Shown here: in pieces, positions 31,238 through 53,571 of the stretch | Numbering within the stretch: the stretch's first letter is position 1 | Layout of the letters: each line of letters begins with the position of its first letter | Source: Chloroflexota bacterium | GTDB lineage: Bacteria; Chloroflexota; UBA11872; VXNJ01 | Reading direction: 5' to 3' | Assembly (NCBI GenBank): GCA_009840625.1 | Contig: VXNJ01000001.1 | Coordinates: 248,001-312,000, forward strand | DNA: 64,000 bases | Position numbers and translations under genes: made by a program | Notes under the pieces: model-generated | What the model was told of the DNA's origin: nothing | What the model saw: the letters and a program-made list of their open reading frames with translations, nothing else | Databases searched by the model: none

Positions 31238-32272
31238 TCAGGCGCCGTTTTCCGGGTAGAACTGCTCGCAATACGCGCGGAATGCCCGCACCTCGCCGTC
31301 GGATCGGCAAAGGCGCGGGTGAGAAACGAACTTCTTGCGGCCCCAGATTTCAACGTCCTGGAGGACATCCTCGGCCTGCTGGGCGGACATGAATCGATTC
31401 AACAGCGGGGCGCGCGCCTTCGTCGGCAGGAATTTCAAACCCATGAACCAGCGCTTGGGGCTGCGCAGTTCGCGCACCTGGCAAGCCAGCGACATATCGA
31501 TGAATTCACCGTCGACTGGGGTCGCCAGGATCCAGATTCGCAAGTCCATTCCGATGGAGCGCTCGTGTACCTCCACCAGCGAATATCCAAATCCGTAAAT
31601 GTGGGTGTCGGCGGAAGGCGCGAACGTCAATTTCAGAATTCCGGCAATCTCGCGCGTGCGGGTGAAGTCGAACCGGCTGCGCAGATAGGGCCCGTCTATT
31701 GCGAGCGGGTCCACCCGGTCGACGCTGCCGTAGCCGTGGACGTAGCGCAGGTGGGCCAGATCGACCGAATTCTCCGTCGTTTCCTGCGGGTGGCCGCGGA
31801 ACCGCAGGGTTCTGATCCGCAGGTCGCACCAGCCGGACTGGTCCGGTTCTTCGGACGGCAGATCCCACTGCGGGTCCCGCCCGTCAATCCCCCACCAACC
31901 GAAGATCAATCCGCAAATGACCCGGGTTGCAAACACCCGCAGTCGCGCCGATCGCGGCGGGGCCGCGTACGGCGTATGGACGCAGCGGCCGGAAGTGTCG
32001 AATTCGAACCCGTGGAACGGACAGACGATCCGCCCGTCGCTGACCCGGCCACCGGCACTCGGGCCCAGAAACGAACCCAGGTGGGGGCAAATGGCCTCGG
32101 CCACGCAAACCTGGCCGGCGTCATCGATCCAGGCGACTATGCTCTCGCCCATCCACGTCTTCTGGATGAGGCTGGCTTTTCGAACTTCGCGAACGCTGGC
32201 GACGTAAAACCAGCCCTCGGGGTAGGGTGACGGCAGTGGCGCAATCGCGGGTTCGCCGTGTTTTCTCGGCAT
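31238..32272 (-). CDS. Rieske non-heme iron oxygenase (KshA/DAF-36-like)
   Basis: Terminal oxygenase of a Rieske monooxygenase. The 2Fe-2S ligands are in CPHLGS and CPFHGF, and the mononuclear iron site is in ENSVDLAHLRYVHGY. The overall look is closest to steroid/sterol-type Rieske enzymes (3-ketosteroid 9-hydroxylase, cholesterol 7-desaturase). I chose the ATG at 32272 (344 aa), which has AAGGAGGG eight bases upstream. The frame runs on to 32410 but those residues have no family match. No ferredoxin or reductase gene is adjacent. The P450 lies 1.2 kb away. Confidence 0.88.
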   Translation of the reverse strand: MPRKHGEPAIAPLPSPYPEGWFYVASVREVRKASLIQKTWMGESIVAWIDDAGQVCVAEAICPHLGSFLGPSAGGRVSDGRIVCPFHGFEFDTSGRCVHTPYAAPPRSARLRVFATRVICGLIFGWWGIDGRDPQWDLPSEEPDQSGWCDLRIRTLRFRGHPQETTENSVDLAHLRYVHGYGSVDRVDPLAIDGPYLRSRFDFTRTREIAGILKLTFAPSADTHIYGFGYSLVEVHERSIGMDLRIWILATPVDGEFIDMSLACQVRELRSPKRWFMGLKFLPTKARAPLLNRFMSAQQAEDVLQDVEIWGRKKFVSHPRLCRSDGEVRAFRAYCEQFYPENGA

Positions 32273-32532
32273 CGCGGGTCCCTCCTTCGCCGCCATGGCG
32301 GGCGCCAAGCCCTGTTCCCGAACAAATGTTCGTTTACCCGGATTGGATTTTCCGCCGGAGGTGCCGCGCCGGGCCAACCGCGTCGATAGCTTCGTACGCG
32401 GCGGGATCACCTGGTACCGTTACCGTTCGGCTGATCCGGGCACTGCGTTAAATCCGTATGATCTGGCAGATGGGTGAGCCGGCCCCCGGCGGTCCATACC
32501 AACCCGGCCCGGCCAGCAATGGAGACGAACGC

Positions 32533-33507: not shown

Positions 33508-35535
33508 ATGACTGCCACAAGCGAGGGCGTGAGGACTCACGCGCTGACGCTGACCGAAGAGCTGGTCTTGATGCTCCTCAACGAGGAAAGCGGCTACTTT
33601 CGGCAGGTGCCCGGCTGGAACCTGGACTGCGCGATAGTCGGTTCGGTGCTGGCCGAACTGTCCATGACGGGTCGTATAGACACCGACATGAATTCGCTCA
33701 TCCTGCTGGATGACACCCCGACCGGCGATCCCCTGCTGGACCCGCTGCTTGCCGAAATCGCGGCCGACTCGGGCCAGCGCAATGCACAGTACTGGATCGA
33801 GCGGTACGCCCGCCGGGCCGAGCCGATAGTCGACGGGGCGCTTGACCGACTCGTCAAGCTGGGAATTCTGCGGCATCATACCGGGGATTTCTGGACGCTG
33901 ACCGAGAACGCCCTGCGCGAAGATTCGGCGCCCGACGGCGACCCGGGCTCGGCGACCGGATTCGTCAAGACCCGCATCAGCAAGGCGATCTTCGATGGGG
34001 AGATTCCCGAGCCGCGCGACATCGTCATCATTTGCCTGATCAACACCTGCGACCTGTTCCGCTTCATCTTCGAATTGGACGAGGAAAACGAAGAGCGGAT
34101 CGAGTTGATCTGCAGGATGGACTTGATCGGCCGGTCCATAGCCGCGGCGGTGGAGCAGAACCTGACCGGCGGCTTGTTCCAGCGCCCTCCGATTTCCAAG
34201 GCGATTCCTACCGCCCCGCTGCGCAAATTGCTTTTCAACCGGAATCTGCGCAAAGGCAACATTCCGGCGGTGTTTGCCGACCTCACCCGGCAGCTGGGCC
34301 CGGTGTATCAGATCAAGCCACCCTTCGCCAAGCCTCTGGTTTTTTTGGGCGGACCGTCCATCAATCGGTGGGCGAACCGGAACGCGCGAGGTTTTCTGCG
34401 CTCCCAGGACTATCTATCCACCTTTGAAAAGGTGTACGGGGCCCACGGAATCATGCCGGCGCTTGATGGGGCCGACCACTTCCGGCTGCGCAAATCGCTG
34501 GCTCCGGCGTACTCCCGCAAGCGCCTCGCGGGGCAACTCGACGACATCTACCAGCACGCCCGCAGCGAGATGACGAAGTGGGAGCAAGGCGACGTGCTTT
34601 CGTCAACGCCCATGATGCGCCAACTGGTCAACGCTCAAATATCGGCGTACTTTCTGAGCGTGCATTCGCAAGACATATTCGACGACCTTGTCAGTTTCAA
34701 GGAGCAGGCGCTCAAGGCGCACGTAACGAAGACGTTGCCCAAATTCATGCTCAAGACCCCGGGCATGAAGCGCAAACTCGCTTCACTCGCGGATTTGCTT
34801 GAACGGGTCACGAGCGGCCATACGCCCGCCCAGCGGGCCGGGTGCCCGCGCGACCTTGCTGACGATTTGTTCAGCCTGCACGCCAGCGATCCGCAGTTCC
34901 TACCGGCGACGAACCTGAGCTTTGCTCTTTCGGCGTCGCTGATTGCCAGCATGTATCTGGGCGACCAGTTGAATTTCGCCGTGTACGCCATGGTGACTCA
35001 ACCTGAATTGCGCGACCGGATCGAGGCCGAAGCCGACGCTTTGTTCGGCGGCGGCGATCCGGGCAGCGAAGACTTCTCCCTGCAAGCGATTGATGTCACG
35101 CACCGCTTCATCATGGAAGTCCTGCGGATGTACCCGGTGGTCCCGATGTCGGTCAGAACGGTTATGAATCCGTGCGTGGTGGAAGGGTTCGCGCTGCCGA
35201 CCGGGACTCGACTGCACATCGCCCAAACCGCCTGTCACTACATGGAAGAGTTGTTCCCCGAACCGTTCAAATTCGACATCGACCGCTACCAAGCGCCGCG
35301 CAACGAGCATCGCGGCCCCGGCTATGCGCCCTACGGGTTGGGGTCACACTCGTGCATGGGATCGCACATGATGGAGATGCTGTTGGCGGTCAACCTGCTG
35401 ATGCTCGCGCACTACTTCAAGATCGAAGTTTGGCCCCCCGATTTCAAGTTTCGAATCAACCCGTTTCCGTCGCAGTCGGTAAGCAAAAAACTCAAGTACC
35501 GGATCACTGCGCGCCGGCGGGAGATTCCCGCTTAG
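33508..35535 (+). CDS. Cytochrome P450 with N-terminal GPP34 (GOLPH3-like) domain
   Basis: 675 aa in two parts. Residues about 12-215 look like a GPP34 domain (LTLTEELVLMLLNEESGYF, then SVLAELSMTGRID and LDRLVKLGILR), a family that in eukaryotes binds phosphatidylinositol-4-phosphate on Golgi membranes. Residues about 235-675 are a P450 with ExxR at Glu537/Arg540 and the heme loop YGLGSHSCMG with Cys616. The I-helix reads YLGDQLNFAVY, so the usual (A/G)GxDT oxygen-activation motif lacks its Thr. The ATG overlaps the stop of a small upstream frame. I infer a membrane-tethered oxygenase for a lipid-like substrate. Confidence 0.88.
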   Translation: MTATSEGVRTHALTLTEELVLMLLNEESGYFRQVPGWNLDCAIVGSVLAELSMTGRIDTDMNSLILLDDTPTGDPLLDPLLAEIAADSGQRNAQYWIERYARRAEPIVDGALDRLVKLGILRHHTGDFWTLTENALREDSAPDGDPGSATGFVKTRISKAIFDGEIPEPRDIVIICLINTCDLFRFIFELDEENEERIELICRMDLIGRSIAAAVEQNLTGGLFQRPPISKAIPTAPLRKLLFNRNLRKGNIPAVFADLTRQLGPVYQIKPPFAKPLVFLGGPSINRWANRNARGFLRSQDYLSTFEKVYGAHGIMPALDGADHFRLRKSLAPAYSRKRLAGQLDDIYQHARSEMTKWEQGDVLSSTPMMRQLVNAQISAYFLSVHSQDIFDDLVSFKEQALKAHVTKTLPKFMLKTPGMKRKLASLADLLERVTSGHTPAQRAGCPRDLADDLFSLHASDPQFLPATNLSFALSASLIASMYLGDQLNFAVYAMVTQPELRDRIEAEADALFGGGDPGSEDFSLQAIDVTHRFIMEVLRMYPVVPMSVRTVMNPCVVEGFALPTGTRLHIAQTACHYMEELFPEPFKFDIDRYQAPRNEHRGPGYAPYGLGSHSCMGSHMMEMLLAVNLLMLAHYFKIEVWPPDFKFRINPFPSQSVSKKLKYRITARRREIPA

Positions 35536-35641: not shown

Positions 35642-38113
35642 TCAGTTCTGCCCCTGTCCCTCCAGGCGGCGGTGCGTTTCCTCGATGGCGACGTCGAGAT
35701 CGTCCCACATCCGCTCAACCATCGATCGGAGCCGCATGTTCTGGTAGGCGCCCCAGACCGTCATCGCCGGCGGCACCACCAGGATCGAAAACAGGAGCGA
35801 GTAAAAGATCGTGATTGCCGCGGTGAAGCCGAACTGCTGCGATGCCGCCAGCGGCGCGAGGACCAGCATGCCCAGGCCCAGCGCGGTGGTCAGACCGGAG
35901 CCGAGCAGCGCGGATCCGGTTATCGAAAGCGTCCGGACCGCGGCGGTTTCGGGGTTGCGGTGCTTGGCGAACTCCTCGCGATAGCGGTGGATCACGTGAA
36001 TCGTGTAATCGACTCCGATCCCGATCGAGAGGGCCGTGATTATCGAGGTGATCAGCGTGTAGGGGATCCCGATGAGGGCCATGGTTCCCAGCACGCAGAT
36101 AAGAACCAGCACGATAGGGCCGACGGCCACGATCGAGAGCATAGGCTGCCGGATCGTTATCCAGAAAAAGACCGCCAGCACGGTAAGCGCGACCGCAACC
36201 GTGGCGCTAATTGCCTCGGTCTGGCGCCGGGTTATTGAATCGGTGACCGTGATCGAGACGATGCTGTCCGAAGTCGCCGTGACGTTTTCGTCGTCTCCGA
36301 ACCACAGGGCCTCGATTTCATCCTGCAGTGTGGCGGTCTGTGAGGGCTCGTTGTTGTAGGCGGGGAATTGCACCAGGATCGAATCGATCCCGTTGGGGTC
36401 GTTGACCAGGAGCCTGTCGAGCGCCGGGTCGTTTCGCCCGATCCGGTCAAGGACTTCCTGCATCAGCGCCCGATCCACTTCAACGCCGGCGGTTGCCTGG
36501 TCGTACAGGGCGGCCAGGTCGGGGTCGAATTTGTCGCCCGGCTCACCGCTCGCGGTGACCCAGTCGCGGACAACCTTTTCATAGGTGCCAAGGACGGGTC
36601 CGGCGGCGGCGGCCGGTCGTACCGATGCGTTTGAAAACGCGGCGTCCAGGTCGCGCAGGTTGATGAGGGTGCGCGTCTCGGTCGCCTCGGCCTTGATCAG
36701 GATCGACGTCAATTCGGTCGCGCCGCCGACCGCCTCGTCGAGCGTGTCCATGTCTTCGAGCACCTGGCCGCCGCGTGGAAGGATGTCCCGGATGCTGAAT
36801 TCGGACTCGATGTCGGTTGCGGCGAATCCGAGCGCGACGGTGACCGCCAGCACGCCCACGATGTACGGTGCCGGGCGGCTGGTCACGCTTCGCCCCAGCA
36901 ACCCGGCCGCCCCTTCGATTCCGGGCAGGGCTTGCGAGACCGGTCTAGGCTCCCGCAGGGTCTGGCGCGCTTCGCGGCGTCGGTCGATGATAAATCGACC
37001 GCAGGGCAGCAGGGTCAGCATCACGACCAGGCTCAGTCCCACGCCGAGTCCGGCAACTACTCCAAAGTCCCCCACGATTCCGATCGGGGAAAAGAGACTA
37101 GCGAACAAGCTGACCATCGTCGTAACCGCCGCCAGGATGAGCGGGACCGTCACGATCCGCAATCCGGTCCGAATCGATTCGGTAACCGGCAACCCTTCGA
37201 CGCGCTGTTCGCGGTAGTGCGTGACGATCTGGATGGCATAGTCGACCGTGAGGCCGATGATGATGATCGGAACCATGGTCGTCAGCGAGTTCGGCGGCCC
37301 GATCAAGCCCAATCCCCTGGGCCCGAGCAATCCTTCCACGCCGGTAATCCAAAGGATCGCCATCACCAGGCCCGCCAGGGTCAGCAATACGTCAGCCGGG
37401 GTGCGTAGGAAAACCGCGAGCAGGATGACAATCACCAGCAGCGCCAGGCCGGTGACCGGCAGCATTCCGACCTCGGTCGCCTCCTGGTACTCGTCCTCGA
37501 TGATGATGGGCGAGATCGAACTTGCCTTAAGTGGGCCTTCGCTGGCGGCTGCGGACTCGTTGATCCAGCGTTCGGCTTCGGCGACCAGGTCGAAATCCGA
37601 GCTTGCGAGCCTGAGGGTGGCAATCGTTATCGGGTCTCCGTCCGCATCATTCCCCGTCAGGGCGTCGAGTGCGGCCGCGATTTGCGGAATACCGCCGGTC
37701 GAATCGATTTCGGCCTGGGTGATACCGCTCAGATCGGTCAATTGAAGCGCACCCTGCACCAGCAGGTGCGGTGCCACGACCGGGTTGTCGGGCACCAGCA
37801 GGTCCGCGACCTGGGGGTTGCCGGTGACCGCGTCGATCAAGTCGGCCATCTGGGACAGGCCGGCCGGCGTCAACGCTTCGCCGCGGAAAAGAAACGTCAC
37901 CACGTTCGATTCGCCGGAGGCGCCAAAGATCTCGTCAATCTCGGCAAGGGTTTCCCTTACCGCGCCATCGGGAAGGGTCTCTTCGGTGGTAGGCGGAGGC
38001 TCTCGCAGATCCGCGCCGACCAACAAGGCGAAGGTGATCAGAACCAACGCGGCGACAGTCAGCCAGGGTCGGGCTGTCACCAGTCGGCTAAATATGACCA
38101 GCGGTTGGTTCAT
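35642..38113 (-). CDS. MMPL/RND-family lipid transporter
   Basis: Large inner-membrane exporter with the two-fold RND layout: one N-terminal helix, a long extracytoplasmic domain, then five clustered helices, and the same again. Segments such as TVDYAIQIVTHYRE and IGVDYTIHVIHRYREEF are the helix-4 motifs of the MMPL branch (hopanoid, sterol or complex lipid transport). I chose the ATG at 38113 (823 aa) because MNQPLVIFSRLV leads straight into the first helix; an earlier start at 38167 adds 18 unlikely residues. Convergent with the P450 gene, with a 106 bp gap. Confidence 0.85.
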   Translation of the reverse strand: MNQPLVIFSRLVTARPWLTVAALVLITFALLVGADLREPPPTTEETLPDGAVRETLAEIDEIFGASGESNVVTFLFRGEALTPAGLSQMADLIDAVTGNPQVADLLVPDNPVVAPHLLVQGALQLTDLSGITQAEIDSTGGIPQIAAALDALTGNDADGDPITIATLRLASSDFDLVAEAERWINESAAASEGPLKASSISPIIIEDEYQEATEVGMLPVTGLALLVIVILLAVFLRTPADVLLTLAGLVMAILWITGVEGLLGPRGLGLIGPPNSLTTMVPIIIIGLTVDYAIQIVTHYREQRVEGLPVTESIRTGLRIVTVPLILAAVTTMVSLFASLFSPIGIVGDFGVVAGLGVGLSLVVMLTLLPCGRFIIDRRREARQTLREPRPVSQALPGIEGAAGLLGRSVTSRPAPYIVGVLAVTVALGFAATDIESEFSIRDILPRGGQVLEDMDTLDEAVGGATELTSILIKAEATETRTLINLRDLDAAFSNASVRPAAAAGPVLGTYEKVVRDWVTASGEPGDKFDPDLAALYDQATAGVEVDRALMQEVLDRIGRNDPALDRLLVNDPNGIDSILVQFPAYNNEPSQTATLQDEIEALWFGDDENVTATSDSIVSITVTDSITRRQTEAISATVAVALTVLAVFFWITIRQPMLSIVAVGPIVLVLICVLGTMALIGIPYTLITSIITALSIGIGVDYTIHVIHRYREEFAKHRNPETAAVRTLSITGSALLGSGLTTALGLGMLVLAPLAASQQFGFTAAITIFYSLLFSILVVPPAMTVWGAYQNMRLRSMVERMWDDLDVAIEETHRRLEGQGQN

Positions 38114-38198
38114 GGCGGGTGATTTTAAGTTGGTACCCGTCGTTCTACTGCCGGCCGGCGGTCGCAATCGACGGCGTCTTTAGGGCGCGCTTTCGGGG

Positions 38199-39587
38199 CT
38201 AGGCCCTGCGGAATCCCCGCCCGTACAACAGGCTCCCGTAGTGATTGAACCATGCCCGGGCATCCGAATCCGCGAACGGGTAATCGGCGCCGAGTTGCCT
38301 GGCCGCCGCCAGGCCGGTGACCAGGCAGGTTTCCTGGCTGTTTACCAGGGTGTGGGCGCCGCAGTGCCAGGTGCGCCGCCGCCCCTGAATGAAGCGGAAC
38401 AGGGGGACCAGCAACGCCACGTGGCGAACGTCGTGGACGACGTGCTGGAACCAGCGCCTGGCGATCACCTTTTCTTCGTCAATCGGACTGATCGGGTTGT
38501 AGGTCACCAGGCAGGGCCGATCGGAGGCGCTTGCCCAAGGCTGCTGGTTATGCATGATGTAGGTGATCTCGTAGTTGTCCGGTCGCGCGCCGTATTGCTC
38601 AATGTGATTGCTGCGCGTGGCCAGGGCCTTAACCGGGCTCTCCGGCAGGACCGAGGGGTCCGAATGGACGATCGCGTGGTTGTGGAGTTCGCTCTCGTAG
38701 CGGATTGACGAGAGGATGAAGCGCTCCAGCAAAGTGGGCCTATCCAGGGCCATGAGCGCCTGGTTGGCGTTGCAGGCTAGAACGACGTCGTCAAACTTCT
38801 CGCGGACCCCGGCGTCGTCCTCGACAACCACGCCGGAGCGGTAGCGGTAGACCTTGCGTACGCCCCGATTCAGATAAATCTTGTCGGGAAACCCGGCCGC
38901 AATGTTCTCGTAGATCCGCCGAGTCCCGCCGTCCCACGTCTGCATGGGCGTGGCCGACTCGATGTCGAAGAATTCAAGGTATCGCGAGAAGAGTGCCGCC
39001 GGCATGTCGAACACGTTTGTTGCCATCAGGAAGTTGACGAACATCGGCTTGAGGATCTTGTACCTGAAGTCGCCGGAAAACCCGCCTAGGTTGAGCACCG
39101 TTCCCATGCTCAGGTAATTGAATGGATTCAGCGCGTTCAGGAGCTTTGACCGCGCCCGCGTGAGGGCCCCGAATTGGTGCAGGCGGCCGAGCAGCCGCTG
39201 GAATTTTGAAATCTCGGGTTGCAGCTGCCGACGGATTTCCGAATCGAAATCGTGGGCGTAGACATCGCCCTGATACCTGACGCTGTAGTTGAACCTGGTG
39301 TCGACCAGTTCGATGCCGAACTTTTCCAGCAGCAGCAGGACGTGGTGGTAGACCGAAGGAATGCAGGCGGTCACCGAGATGTCGAAGGGGATCGTGCTGC
39401 CGTCGGCCTGCGGCATGTCCACCGTCACCGCGTTTCCGCCCAGTTGGTCGCGGGCCTCAAAGAGCCGAAAGTCGAATCGCTCCGGATGATGGCTAAGGGC
39501 CCAGGCCACCCCCAGTCCGGAGACCCCTCCTCCGACGATGGCGATGCGCCTGGGGCCGGCGTGCCTCGGCGAATTGGCGGCAGTCAT
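38199..39587 (-). CDS. FAD-dependent oxidoreductase (COG2907-like, amine-oxidase fold)
   Basis: NAD/FAD-binding flavoprotein. The dinucleotide motif IAIVGGGVSGLGVAW is at 15-29 and FEARDQLGGNAVTVD follows. The C-terminus GAHTLVNSQETCLVTGLAAA is typical of COG2907 proteins. These are usually encoded beside DUF1365 and cyclopropane-fatty-acyl synthases, and in plants a similar domain is fused to cyclopropane synthase. The substrate is probably a lipid. 462 aa, ATG at 39587. Same strand as the MMPL gene, 85 bp away. Confidence 0.85.
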   Translation of the reverse strand: MTAANSPRHAGPRRIAIVGGGVSGLGVAWALSHHPERFDFRLFEARDQLGGNAVTVDMPQADGSTIPFDISVTACIPSVYHHVLLLLEKFGIELVDTRFNYSVRYQGDVYAHDFDSEIRRQLQPEISKFQRLLGRLHQFGALTRARSKLLNALNPFNYLSMGTVLNLGGFSGDFRYKILKPMFVNFLMATNVFDMPAALFSRYLEFFDIESATPMQTWDGGTRRIYENIAAGFPDKIYLNRGVRKVYRYRSGVVVEDDAGVREKFDDVVLACNANQALMALDRPTLLERFILSSIRYESELHNHAIVHSDPSVLPESPVKALATRSNHIEQYGARPDNYEITYIMHNQQPWASASDRPCLVTYNPISPIDEEKVIARRWFQHVVHDVRHVALLVPLFRFIQGRRRTWHCGAHTLVNSQETCLVTGLAAARQLGADYPFADSDARAWFNHYGSLLYGRGFRRA

Positions 39588-48050: not shown

Positions 48051-49538
48051 ATGTCCACCGAGCCCATGAACCTGCTGATCCTGATGTCGGACGAGCACAC
48101 CCGGCGCATGACCGGATGCTACGGGCACGACATCGTTCAGACTCCCAACCTGGACGCGCTGGCGGCGCGGGGAGTGCGATTTGACCGCGCTTATGTCAAC
48201 TGCCCGATCTGCGTCCCGTCGCGGGCCAATTTCATGACCGGCCAGTACGTTCATAGCAGCGGGCACTGGGACAACGCCCATGCCTGGAAAGGCGAACCCG
48301 AGGGCTGGAGCCACCGCCTCACCGACCAGGGGCACGTTGCCACCACCATCGGTAAGCTGCACTTCCACGACGTATCCGACCCCAACGGCCTGACCGAATC
48401 GCGGGTGGCGATGAACATCTTCAAGGGGCGCGGCGATTACTTTTCCAGCATGCGTTGGCGCCGACTCAAGGGCAAGGTCTCGCACTCCGCGGATTCGACG
48501 ATGGAAGCCGGGCCGGGCGAGAGCCACTACACCCGATTCGATCGGGCCGCCACCGCCGAAGCGTGCTCCTGGCTGGCTAACGAATCGCAGGGGCACGACA
48601 AGCCCTGGTGCCTGATGGTCTCGCTGCTTTGCCCGCACCCGCCGCTGATCGCGCCGCAGGAGTTTTACGACATGTACCCCTTGGACGGGGTGGACATGCC
48701 GATCGCCTGGTCGCCGGAGCAGTGGCCCGACCACCCCTACTGGAACGAAGCCCGGCCCTGGCGGCTCCCCTTCGACGGCGACGAGTACTACACCGAGGCC
48801 CAGGTCCGCCGGGCGATCGCCGCCTACTACGGGATCACCACCTTCATGGACTACAACTTCGGCCTGGTCCTGGCCGCGCTGGAGGAATCCGGTCAGGCGG
48901 AGAACACCCGCATCATCTACACCTCCGATCACGGCGAGATGCTGGGCGGGTTCGGACTCTGGGGCAAGATGTGCATGTACGAGGACTCGGTCGGAACCCC
49001 GCTGATAATCGCCGGCCCCGACATACCCCAGGGCGAGACCCAACAGACCATCGTGAGCTGGGCCGATGTCTTCCCAACCGTCCTGGAAGGCGTCGGCGCC
49101 TCGCCGGAGGCCGGAGATGACGCGCTCCCCGGTGATTCGCTATGGCCGCTGACCAAGGGCGAAACCGACCTGGAACGGGTCGCGTTTTCCGAGTATCACG
49201 CCGCCCGCAGCCCTACCGGGAACTTCATGATCTGCGACCAGCGCTACAAGTACGTGTACTACGCCGCCGGGTATCCGCCGCAGCTGTTCGACCTCCAGGA
49301 GGACCCGCAGGAGCTGAACGACCTGCACGCCAGCCCGGCGCACGCCGCGATCCGCGATCGGCTCCACGCCCAACTGCTCCAAATCTGCGACCCCGAAGCG
49401 GTCAACAAGCAGGCGTTCGCAGACCAACGTGCGCTTATCGACGGCTACGGCGGCGAGGAGCACGTGGCCGCCGAAGGTCCGCTGATCGGGGCGACCCCTA
49501 CCCCGGTCGAGTTCTACGAGGACGGGATCCAGCGCTAG
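48051..49538 (+). CDS. Sulfatase, type I formylglycine family (copy 1)
   Basis: Hydrolyses a sulfate ester, probably on a sugar or choline-like compound. The formylglycine motif is CVPSRANFMTG near 56 and the metal-binding MSDEHTRRM is at the N-terminus. IIYTSDHGEM near 285 supplies Asp/His. 495 aa, ATG at 48051, no clear signal peptide. A close paralog follows 133 bp downstream. The Cys needs maturation by FGE or anSME, not present here. Confidence 0.92.
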   Translation: MSTEPMNLLILMSDEHTRRMTGCYGHDIVQTPNLDALAARGVRFDRAYVNCPICVPSRANFMTGQYVHSSGHWDNAHAWKGEPEGWSHRLTDQGHVATTIGKLHFHDVSDPNGLTESRVAMNIFKGRGDYFSSMRWRRLKGKVSHSADSTMEAGPGESHYTRFDRAATAEACSWLANESQGHDKPWCLMVSLLCPHPPLIAPQEFYDMYPLDGVDMPIAWSPEQWPDHPYWNEARPWRLPFDGDEYYTEAQVRRAIAAYYGITTFMDYNFGLVLAALEESGQAENTRIIYTSDHGEMLGGFGLWGKMCMYEDSVGTPLIIAGPDIPQGETQQTIVSWADVFPTVLEGVGASPEAGDDALPGDSLWPLTKGETDLERVAFSEYHAARSPTGNFMICDQRYKYVYYAAGYPPQLFDLQEDPQELNDLHASPAHAAIRDRLHAQLLQICDPEAVNKQAFADQRALIDGYGGEEHVAAEGPLIGATPTPVEFYEDGIQR

Positions 49539-49671: not shown

Positions 49672-51153
49672 GTGGAGCCAATGAACCTGTTGATCATCAT
49701 GTCGGACGAACACACGCGCCGCATGACCGGCTGCTACGGGCACCCGCAGGTCAAGACCCCCAACCTGGACCGGCTGGCCGCCGACGGGGTGCGCTTCGAT
49801 AACGCCTACTGCAATTTCCCGATCTGCGTGCCCTCGCGCGCCAACTTTCTCACCGGGCGCTATTGCCATGAGACAGGGCACTGGGACAACGCCCATCCCT
49901 ACGTGGGCCACGAAGCTCCCAGCTGGGGGCACCGCCTGGCCGCCAACGGAAACCAGGTCACATCGATCGGAAAACTCCACTACCGCGCAGATGAGGACGA
50001 CAACGGCATCGCCGAAAAACGGGTCTCGATGAACGTCCGGGACGGCATCGGCGATGTGCGTGGTTCGATCCGCTGGAACATGCCCCCCAGCCAAGCCCCC
50101 GCGTTCGACGTGCTGCAGGCCCACGCTGGCGATTCCGAATACATCCGCTTCGATACCGCGGTCGCCGACGAGACCGTGCGCTGGCTGGGCGACGATGCCA
50201 CGTCGTACGATCGGCCCTGGGTGCTGTTCGCCTCGGTCGTCACCCCGCATTTCCCGTTCATTTGCCCGCAGCGGCACTGGGACCTCTACGACGTCGACGA
50301 AGTCGAAATGCCGCTCTCCCACGAGAGCTATCCCGACCATCCCTACTGGAACAGGGTCCGCCCGCTGCGGATGAGTCCGCCCGACGGTTCGGACCGGCTG
50401 CCCGACGAGGCGGTCCGCCGCGGGATTACCGCCTATTGGGGCTTGATCTCATTCATGGACGAACAGGTCGGCCGCATATTGGACGCGGTCGATGCCAACG
50501 GCTGGCGCGAGAACACCCGCATCATCTACACGTCGGACCACGGCGAGATGGCGGGCAGTTTCGGGCTGTGGGGCAAGAGCTCGCACTACGAGGATGCCGT
50601 CGGAGTCCCGTTCATCATGTCGGGCCCCGACCTGCCGGCCGGCGAAACGCGCAGCGCCAACGTCTCGTTCATCGACTTTTTCCCGACAGTGCTGGATGCG
50701 GTGGGAGCCCCGGCCGCGGCCGAAGATTCCGACCTGCCGGGCACCTCGCTGTGGCCGGTAGCGCGCGGCGAGAGCGATCCGCAGCGGACCGTCTTCGCCG
50801 AGTACCACGCCAGCGGGGCCATCTGCGGCTCCTACATGGTCCGCGACCAGCGCTACAAATACGTGCACTATGCCGACCCGCAGTTTCCGGCACAGCTCTT
50901 CGACCTGGACAACGACCCGCGCGAACTCTGCGACTTGGGTTCCGATCCGAGCCACGCCGGCGTCCGTGCGCGCCTGCATCTCGAACTACTGGACATCTGC
51001 GATCCGGCGGAGGTGAACTCGCGCGCGTTTGCCGACCAGCGTGCGCTCGTTGAGCGAAACGGGGGCGAGGAGCACATCGTCGCCAACTACGTCAAGATTC
51101 CCTACACCCCGGCGCCCGCAGCGTTCGGTCCGGAAAAAGAACCCTTCCAATAG
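49672..51153 (+). CDS. Sulfatase, type I formylglycine family (copy 2)
   Basis: Tandem paralog of the gene before it, over half identical by eye across the first 130 residues. Motifs are MSDEHTRRMTGCYGH, CVPSRANFLTG and IIYTSDHGEMAGS. 493 aa, GTG at 49672 with AAAGG seven bases upstream; ATG at 49681 is the alternative. Together with copy 1 it suggests local duplication and division of substrate use. Confidence 0.92.
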   Translation: MEPMNLLIIMSDEHTRRMTGCYGHPQVKTPNLDRLAADGVRFDNAYCNFPICVPSRANFLTGRYCHETGHWDNAHPYVGHEAPSWGHRLAANGNQVTSIGKLHYRADEDDNGIAEKRVSMNVRDGIGDVRGSIRWNMPPSQAPAFDVLQAHAGDSEYIRFDTAVADETVRWLGDDATSYDRPWVLFASVVTPHFPFICPQRHWDLYDVDEVEMPLSHESYPDHPYWNRVRPLRMSPPDGSDRLPDEAVRRGITAYWGLISFMDEQVGRILDAVDANGWRENTRIIYTSDHGEMAGSFGLWGKSSHYEDAVGVPFIMSGPDLPAGETRSANVSFIDFFPTVLDAVGAPAAAEDSDLPGTSLWPVARGESDPQRTVFAEYHASGAICGSYMVRDQRYKYVHYADPQFPAQLFDLDNDPRELCDLGSDPSHAGVRARLHLELLDICDPAEVNSRAFADQRALVERNGGEEHIVANYVKIPYTPAPAAFGPEKEPFQ

Positions 51154-51247: not shown

Positions 51248-52369
51248 TCAGCGTACCGGGACGTAGCCCCCGAGCGCGCCCCGCTTGGAAAGAACCAGCT
51301 GCCAGAGGTGAATGTTGCGGGCCCGGAATCCGCCGGCGCAGGAGAGCAGGTAGTACCGCCACATCCGGTAGAAGCGTTCCCCGTACTTGTCCTTCAGGGC
51401 GTCCCAATTGGAATCGAACTTGGCCATCCAGGCGTTCAATGTCTTGTCGTAATCGGGCCCGAAGTTGTGCCAGTCCTCGACAACGAATCGGCTCTCCAGG
51501 GCCTCGCCCAGGTTCTTGATCGAAGGCAGCGCTCCGTTGGGAAAGATGTACTTGTCTATCCAGGGGTCCACGACCGGCGAGGTCCGATTGGCGCCGATGC
51601 TGTGGAGCAGGAAGAAACCTTCGTCTTTTAGGCAGCGGCGGGCTACGTCGAAGTAGATCGGGTAGTTCTTCACCCCGACGTGTTCGAACATCCCCATCGA
51701 AACCACGTGGTCGAAGCTTCCACGGAGATCGCGATAGTCCTGCAGCCGAAACTCTACCGGCAGCCCCTCGCAGCGCTGGCGGCCCAGCTCGACCTGGTTC
51801 TCGGACACCGTCACGCCGGTGCACCGGGCGCCGTACTCTGCGGCGGCGAACTGCATGAACGCCCCCCAGCCGCAGCCGATGTCGAGCACGTGCTGGCCGC
51901 TCTGGAGCCCGATCTTGCGGCAGATCAGGTCCAGCTTGGCCGTCTGCGAGTCGTCGAGATTGTCGGCCCGGGCCCAGTACCCGCAGCTGCCGGTTATGCG
52001 GGTGTCGAAGGTGGCCTCGAAGACATCGTTGCCCAGGTCGTAGTGCTCGCGGCCCACGATCCAGGCGCGGGCCTTGGACTGGCGGTTCAGCAGCACCCCG
52101 GAGAGCCGGTAGGCGATCGTCTTCAGGTTCTTGGGGACCGACTGGTCGATCCGGTGCCGCAGGATGCGGGCGATGAACTCATCGAGTTGCTCGCAGTCCC
52201 ACCAGCCGTCCATGTACGATTCGCCCAGCGCCAGCGAACCGTGCCGGAAGATGCGCCGGTACAGCCGCGGATCGTTTACCTGGATGTCCCAGGGGTTGGG
52301 TCCGTTGATCTCGATTCCGCCCACCGCCAGCATGCGGGCGGTCTCGGCCTGCATCGGGGCGGTCGCCAC
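51248..52369 (-). CDS. Cyclopropane-fatty-acyl-phospholipid synthase-like methyltransferase
   Basis: SAM-dependent enzyme acting on unsaturated phospholipid chains. The SAM motif is VLDIGCGWGAFM near 170, the upstream HYDLGNDVFE is family-typical, and the C-terminal LLSCAGGFRARNIHLWQLV is the CFA end motif. I chose the GTG at 52369 (373 aa), which overlaps the previous stop by one base (TAGTG). Its usual partner, a COG2907 oxidoreductase, is at 38199. An operon with the dehydratase is unexpected. Confidence 0.88.
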   Translation of the reverse strand: MATAPMQAETARMLAVGGIEINGPNPWDIQVNDPRLYRRIFRHGSLALGESYMDGWWDCEQLDEFIARILRHRIDQSVPKNLKTIAYRLSGVLLNRQSKARAWIVGREHYDLGNDVFEATFDTRITGSCGYWARADNLDDSQTAKLDLICRKIGLQSGQHVLDIGCGWGAFMQFAAAEYGARCTGVTVSENQVELGRQRCEGLPVEFRLQDYRDLRGSFDHVVSMGMFEHVGVKNYPIYFDVARRCLKDEGFFLLHSIGANRTSPVVDPWIDKYIFPNGALPSIKNLGEALESRFVVEDWHNFGPDYDKTLNAWMAKFDSNWDALKDKYGERFYRMWRYYLLSCAGGFRARNIHLWQLVLSKRGALGGYVPVR

Positions 52370-53571
52370 TAGTAGTCCAGGCGCTGGCGGCTGATCACCT
52401 TTTCCTCGTCGATCTCGAGTCCCAGCCCGGGATCGTCGGTGGGCGAAATGTAACCGTTGACCGGCTTGGTCGGGTTTTTCCAGAAGAACTGGGTGAACTC
52501 GTTCCACTGCACCAGGTATTCGATGTACGGGGCGTCGGTGGGCGACACCGCGGCCGTCAGATGAGCGTTGATGGGAACCGAGCCGCCGTGCGGAATCAGC
52601 GGTACGCCGTAGGCCGAACAGAGTGCGAATATCTTCATCATCTCCGAGACCCCGCCGGCCCAGATCGTATCGGCCTGGTAGAGGTCGACCGCCTTGGCCT
52701 CCAGGTATTCGCGCGCGCCCCAGCGGGTGTATTCGTGCTCGCCGCCCGAGACTGGGGTCGCCGAGCGGCGGCGCACCTCGGCCTGGCCCGGAATGTCGTC
52801 GGCCTTGACCACCTCCTCGATCCAGCGCACGCGGTGCTCGGCCAGGCGGTTGCCCATGTCGATCGCGTAGCGCACGTCCCAGGAACTCCAGGCGTCGATC
52901 ATGATCTCGACGTCGTCGCCGACCGCCGACCGCAGCGCGCCGGCCAGCTCCACGTTCTTGCGCGCGCCCGGTTCGCCTTCCATCGGTCCGTTGCGGACGA
53001 ACCATTTGGTGGCGGTGAATCCCTGGTCGACGAATCCCTTGGCGACCCGCGCGGCATCCTCGAGTTCGATCGAAAACCCCAGCGCCGAAGCATAGGCCGG
53101 GAAGGATTTTCGGACGGGCCCGCCCAGCAGCCGATAGAGCGGCAGACCGGCTGCTTTTCCGCGGATGTCCCAGAGGGCCGAATCGACCGCGGCGACGGCG
53201 AACATCGCCTCGCCTTTGCGACCGTGAATCAGGTACCGGTACATCTTGTCCCAAGCGCGCTCGGTCGCCAGCGGATCCTCTCCGCGGAGCAGGTCCAATA
53301 GCTGCTTGCGCACGAAGAAAGCCTCGTTGACCGAGCAGGGACCGGCCAGTCCGCTGATGCCGACGTCGGTTTCGACGTGGCAGATGACCGTCGTCACGTC
53401 GACCGTGCCGTCGTCATTTGCCTCGAATCGGTCCTGCGACATCGCCGCCGCGCTTTCGGCACGGTGCTCGGGGTAAACGTCAATCGGGCGAATCAGCCGC
53501 TCTTCAAACATTGGGTACTCGGGCGCCAGCCGGCCGTAGAGTTTTTCGAACCAGATGTCGGTTATTTGCAT
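52369..53571 (-). CDS. Enolase-superfamily dehydratase (L-rhamnonate dehydratase-like)
   Basis: Removes water from an aldonate sugar acid. Metal ligands are spaced as in the superfamily: Asp226 (MIDAW), Glu252 (IEEVV), Glu278 (GGEHEY). His328 in IPHGGS is the probable general acid/base. GGEHEYTRWG is very like rhamnonate dehydratases. I chose the ATG at 53571 (400 aa), which matches family length; the longer frame adds unlike residues. Likely acts in non-phosphorylative sugar breakdown. Confidence 0.88.
   Translation of the reverse strand: MQITDIWFEKLYGRLAPEYPMFEERLIRPIDVYPEHRAESAAAMSQDRFEANDDGTVDVTTVICHVETDVGISGLAGPCSVNEAFFVRKQLLDLLRGEDPLATERAWDKMYRYLIHGRKGEAMFAVAAVDSALWDIRGKAAGLPLYRLLGGPVRKSFPAYASALGFSIELEDAARVAKGFVDQGFTATKWFVRNGPMEGEPGARKNVELAGALRSAVGDDVEIMIDAWSSWDVRYAIDMGNRLAEHRVRWIEEVVKADDIPGQAEVRRRSATPVSGGEHEYTRWGAREYLEAKAVDLYQADTIWAGGVSEMMKIFALCSAYGVPLIPHGGSVPINAHLTAAVSPTDAPYIEYLVQWNEFTQFFWKNPTKPVNGYISPTDDPGLGLEIDEEKVISRQRLDY

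Follow-up and report, generated by a model that had tools for sequence, protein, structure and literature searches.

A GOLPH3-like domain fused to a cytochrome P450 in bacteria mostly from marine sponges, with a probable role in modifying host sterols

The window analysed here, a 64,000-nucleotide stretch of a Chloroflexota genome (GenBank assembly GCA_009840625.1, contig VXNJ01000001.1), carries a gene in which a GPP34 (GOLPH3-like) domain is joined to a cytochrome P450 (Table 1). As the original prediction had proposed from the letters of the sequence, both halves share a single frame of 675 residues, and each matches its Pfam profile above the curated cut-off and over nearly its whole length, the GPP34 half with 104.8 bits against a cut-off of 29.1 (profile positions 1–199 of 201) and the P450 half with 112.6 bits against 22.8 (positions 15–459 of 462); the GPP34 match, on which that prediction had staked itself, is thus present. 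The ExxR pair and the heme cysteine also lie at the residues it had given and are the same in all 56 orthologues examined. Three genes on the opposite strand flank the fusion, and the product of one of them, the MMPL/RND transporter, additionally resembles HpnN (2e-30, below the cut-off).

Table 1. Coordinates of the fusion gene, its domains and motifs, and the neighbouring genes within the window
Feature	Position	Strand	Evidence or remark
GPP34-P450 fusion gene	33508..35535	+	ATG start, 675 aa, uninterrupted frame
GPP34 (GOLPH3-like) domain, residues 15-216	33550..34155	+	Pfam PF05719 8.1e-30
Hairpin-tip counterpart F128-W129-T130-L131 (GOLPH3 F194-L-L-F197)	33889..33900	+	Profile alignment
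Linker, residues 217-243, without invariant residue	34156..34236	+	
Cytochrome P450 domain, residues 244-665	34237..35502	+	Pfam PF00067 2.6e-32
Altered I-helix motif A480-S-x-Y483-x-G485-D486, without AGxDT	34945..34965	+	Invariant 56/56
K-helix E537-x-x-R540	35116..35127	+	Invariant 56/56 orthologues
Heme loop Y609-G-L-G-S-H-S-C616-M-G618	35332..35361	+	G612, H614, C616, G618 invariant 56/56
Rieske oxygenase with KshA_C	31238..32410	-	Pfam Rieske 1e-19, KshA_C 1.5e-25; homologue in 48/59 loci
MMPL/RND transporter	35642..38167	-	Pfam MMPL 5e-42, Sterol-sensing 6e-11, Patched 1e-10; 25/59 loci
FAD-dependent amine-oxidase-like oxidoreductase	38199..39587	-	Pfam Amino_oxidase 1e-16; 39/59 loci, median identity 78%

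A misassembly joining two separate genes, the other finding that could have undone the original prediction, is excluded because a scan of GTDB genomes recovered relatives of the fusion at 58 independent loci in other assemblies (56–64% identical, nearly all full length). The fusion is whole or nearly whole in one frame in 55 of these; two (L047 and L050) are cut by contig ends, and in L051, from Gemmatimonadetes, it is split over two frames, the sole clear damaged copy among the relatives of this first type. The same fusion thus occurs in other Chloroflexota, where the original prediction had suggested looking for it, and also in further phyla, the taxon labels being Chloroflexota, Gemmatimonadota, Acidimicrobiia, Alpha- and Gammaproteobacteria and Latescibacterota. 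The sponge origin of most of the relatives rests on their isolate codes (RHO, COS, IRC, OM1/bin, jk18x and others), which we take to denote marine-sponge metagenome projects. The jk18x isolates are Ircinia symbionts according to the sections of PMC9531527 drawn on here. Values of dN/dS between 0.04 and 0.15 for the GPP34 half and between 0.04 and 0.25 for the P450 half (NG86, 16 pairs) indicate that both are maintained under purifying selection, and the former range dismisses the notion that the GPP34 half is a decaying appendage. The fusion is a real conserved protein of several bacterial phyla, mostly from marine sponges.

The profile of the GPP34 domain matches human GOLPH3 (3kn1, 1.2e-9) and yeast Vps74, and structure prediction, a check that had been proposed at the outset, led to the same fold: the AlphaFold model of the domain (pLDDT 81) finds GOLPH3 with Foldseek (9qpq_B, E 4.3e-9, TM 0.71). 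With GOLPH3 residues numbered after PMC13408441, the tip of its hydrophobic hairpin is kept in the fusion (Table 1), with F128 and W129 each found in 54 of 56 orthologues. The fusion differs from GOLPH3 and Vps74 in being bacterial, in being joined to an enzyme and at the PI4P pocket, none of whose three arginines is kept: R90, R171 and R174 of GOLPH3 correspond to V44, E105 and V/I108 in the profile alignment. Because these arginines are absent, recognition of PI4P by the GPP34 half is unlikely, and we rejected it on the identity of the pocket residues. GOLPH3 also has a longer loop with W161 that is missing from the fused domain; the invariant W37 lies close to GOLPH3 W81 and is a possible counterpart of it, two alignments differing here by two residues. 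Membrane docking through the hairpin is plausible, being predicted from the fold and the residues at the tip, and the tethering role put forward in the original prediction is the best available one for this domain given its GOLPH3-like model and kept hairpin, but the link to PI4P falls with the missing arginines. To our knowledge no role has been assigned to any bacterial GPP34 protein, and its connection here with an enzyme that is a candidate for lipid modification provides a function open to testing. The window's genome also encodes a stand-alone GPP34 protein (L095:7961-8605, minus strand), 40% identical to the fused domain, next to a branched-chain aminotransferase-like gene.

In the P450 half, the position of the canonical AGxDT in the I-helix is occupied by A480-S-M-Y483-L-G485-D486, of which A480, S481, Y483, G485 and D486 do not vary among the 56 orthologues examined. 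The absence of the I-helix threonine, already pointed out in the original prediction, is therefore a trait of the family and not a sequencing error, and the usual acid is gone as well. AGxDT is intact in a second type of GPP34-P450 fusion (31–32% identical) and in unfused relatives (31–34%), the window's type being one residue shorter at this point, which argues that the acid/threonine pair was lost in the lineage of the window's type and that the loss became fixed there. The second-type fusions (L090:7284-9287 and L091:1272-3311), which belong to the same class, have the same domain order as the window's protein, but they carry the canonical AGxDTS, lack W37 and are followed by an acyltransferase-like gene in place of a sterol cluster; in L089 the frame of such a fusion is broken. 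The unfused P450s at L088:8297-9715 and L093:3032-4450 begin with 17 residues (MSRVSSIGQSIIRAVRK) similar to the final helix of the fused GPP34 domain, and this N-terminus is possibly the remnant of a lost GPP34 domain.

Given its invariant loss of the acid/threonine pair, the chemistry of this P450 lineage is probably unusual and could be other than that of a classical monooxygenase. The unusual oxygen activation suggested originally is supported as an anomaly of the sequence, from which the chemistry itself is an extrapolation. P450s without the pair exist (P450eryF, CYP152) and make use of substrate groups or peroxide, so its loss alone is no proof of new chemistry. The sterol C22-desaturases CYP61 and CYP710 also seem to lack the I-helix threonine (ASQDAS), a likeness that would fit a side-chain desaturase and to which we gave no weight.

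The full-length AlphaFold model is of moderate quality (pLDDT 74, without heme) and matches many P450s, with the fatty-acid P450 CYP184A1 ranked first by Foldseek. By profile, the nearest chain of solved structure is that of Methylococcus CYP51, a bacterial sterol 14-demethylase (3e-27). At an identity of ∼20% this match does not fix the substrate, and P450s acting on fatty acids or terpenes reach almost the same scores. The CYP51-ferredoxin of Methylococcus capsulatus is likewise a bacterial P450 fusion with a sterol context, but its partner is a C-terminal ferredoxin rather than an N-terminal GPP34 domain and its I-helix keeps AGHHTS. Membership in CYP51 was rejected, as the Thr/Ser of AGxxTS is missing and neither an epoxidase nor a cyclase is co-encoded in the window's genome.

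The interpretation in the original prediction held only in part, and it missed the main point, a conserved neighbourhood of sterol genes and the spread of the fusion among sponge-symbiont phyla. We followed the recurrence of the partners by tblastn across 59 fusion loci, with the methyltransferase that the window's genome carries on contig C9 serving as the query for that partner. Besides the partners in Table 1, a sterol methyltransferase lies near the fusion at 34 of the 59 loci, though at the window locus it is not adjacent. At least two partners are present at 47 loci and none at four, while 18 control loci yielded just two weak methyltransferase matches; homologues of the window's MsrA, Mo-oxidoreductase and LRR genes were found by tblastn at 0 of the 59 fusion loci. 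Six Chloroflexota clusters contain tandem ERG4/ERG24 reductases, and the acidimicrobial loci have a second P450 nearby. Elsewhere in the window are two tandem sulfatase-like genes (48051-49538 and 49672-51153, plus strand) and, at a distance of 12 kb from the cluster's FAD oxidoreductase, a gene for a cyclopropane-fatty-acid-synthase-type protein (51248-53254, minus strand; CMAS 4e-85).

At the level of whole genomes, the fusion is the sole P450 of the window's genome, which is 96.6% complete and encodes two sterol methyltransferases, two KshA_C Rieske proteins and an ERG4/ERG24 reductase. A second sterol locus in this genome (L074:6556-10185, minus strand) has the reductase (6e-126), a sterol methyltransferase and a KshA_C Rieske in a row. 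Neither a squalene epoxidase nor a squalene, oxidosqualene or hopene cyclase was found in this 96.6% complete genome, which thus pairs sterol methyltransferases with the absence of both enzymes, the combination that we took to mark the remodelling of host sterols. The sterol methyltransferase profile PF08498 matches in 25 of 27 fusion genomes and in none of 14 control genomes; a cyclase is absent from 12 of the 27, and in most of the remainder the matches are of hopene-cyclase strength. Among 400 Chloroflexota genomes, 22 have both the fusion and the methyltransferase, four the fusion alone, two the methyltransferase alone and 372 neither (Fisher 5e-30, a value inflated by relatedness). Together, the methyltransferases without cyclase or epoxidase and their co-occurrence with the fusion suggest that the cell acts on sterols which it does not itself synthesise.

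We consider it likely, with a probability of about 0.68, that the fusion is a peripheral-membrane P450 that modifies host sterols and is tethered by the GPP34 hairpin independently of phosphoinositide recognition. The symbionts would probably remodel host sterols with it, where the sterol substrate, its host origin, the docking and the reaction are each what we infer. A host-derived sterol would enter the bacterial membrane, on the inner face of which the hydrophobic hairpin would dock the P450, and the tether would give the enzyme access to membrane-dissolved sterols. Fed by a ferredoxin, the P450 would then oxidise or desaturate the sterol; the Rieske protein, the FAD oxidoreductase, the ERG4/ERG24-type reductases and the sterol methyltransferases would continue the pathway, and the adjacent MMPL pump may move the substrate or the product. 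For the P450 step itself our preferred, if doubtful, guess is side-chain desaturation, as a sterol methyltransferase needs an alkene on a saturated host sterol and such a reaction would supply it.

KshA-type Rieske proteins serve steroid catabolism too, and the Rieske partner here falls within the KshA_C family. The P450 might accordingly begin the degradation of the side chain, like the actinobacterial CYP125, with the Rieske protein opening the rings as KshA does, and the second P450 of the acidimicrobial loci would suit such a pathway. The sections of PMC5790920 drawn on here describe steroid degraders as enriched in sponges and one KshA clade as coming solely from sponge MAGs, but the degraders they report are Actinobacteria and Proteobacteria only. 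The partners of the fusion are moreover of biosynthetic type (sterol methyltransferase, ERG4/ERG24 reductase), an MlaD/Mce-type importer is absent from the window's genome, and its only extradiol dioxygenase match, at 48.9 bits, stays below the cut-off of 366, all of which makes catabolism improbable. That the substrate is another isoprenoid or an acyl lipid, such as a hopanoid, a carotenoid or a fatty acid, we hold to be quite improbable: the HpnN-like transporter, the SHC-strength cyclases of several fusion genomes, the first rank of CYP184A1 and the kinship of the FAD partner with carotenoid/protoporphyrinogen-type oxidases would all agree with it, but the cluster or the genome repeatedly contains Sterol_MT_C methyltransferases and ERG4/ERG24 reductases, and the window's genome is devoid of a hopene cyclase. 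De novo sterol synthesis with the fusion replacing CYP51 as the 14-demethylase is very improbable, since the closeness of the Methylococcus CYP51 chain and the co-encoded ERG4/ERG24 reductases and sterol methyltransferases are outweighed by the lack of epoxidase and cyclase in the window's genome, by the 12 of 27 fusion genomes without any cyclase (most others having a strong, hopene-cyclase-like one) and by the missing CYP51 I-helix threonine.

Sterol genes of sponge symbionts have been described before, namely ERG24-CYP51-LSS clusters in Ircinia symbionts (PMC9531527) and functional, clustered sterol methyltransferases (PMC10070321). From the sections of these papers drawn on here, the likeness is one of sterol genes that are horizontally spread in sponge symbionts of many phyla; those clusters are described as de novo, with a cyclase and CYP51, whereas the present one combines a Rieske protein, an FAD oxidoreductase, an MMPL transporter and the GPP34-P450 in a genome without a cyclase, and the same sections mention neither GPP34 nor Rieske proteins; the fusion is likewise absent from those of PMC5790920. 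In the open-access literature searched, papers matching 'GPP34' with P450 or bacteria mainly concern insecticidal proteins of the same name, and we found no publication on the fusion or its cluster there, though it may have been reported elsewhere. A wider reading, which we advance tentatively and at somewhat less than even odds, is that sponge symbionts of several phyla exchange an island for remodelling host sterols, in which a P450 with a GOLPH3-like anchor and a non-canonical active site would carry out an undescribed sterol reaction, and that some 'sponge' sterols, fossil markers included, are finished by bacteria unable to make sterols. The diversity of sponge sterols serves as the earliest chemical record of animals. 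If the remodelling of host sterols is true, this diversity would in part be the work of symbionts that cannot synthesise sterols.

A tree of 59 fusion sequences rooted on the second-type fusions (a quick tree with a long branch for the window's row and possibly some mislabelled MAGs) places the Chloroflexota branches at the base, not as one clade, with the Acidimicrobiia as one clade among them, and the Gemmatimonadota require at least three changes on the starred branches. This topology suggests that the fusion arose in Chloroflexota and then moved between phyla. No plasmid record covered 80% of the query in a search for plasmid-borne spread. The gene distances of the cluster partners correlate overall (rho 0.4–0.5), but across phyla this holds for the methyltransferase alone (0.45 versus –0.15 to 0.15 for the others), so co-transfer of the entire cluster as one block is unsupported. 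Finally, the fusion of L019, a MAG labelled 'Gemmatimonadetes', is near-identical to those of the gammaproteobacterial MAGs L031, L036 and L058 and the gene order is similar, a likeness that reflects misbinning, mislabelling or very recent transfer.
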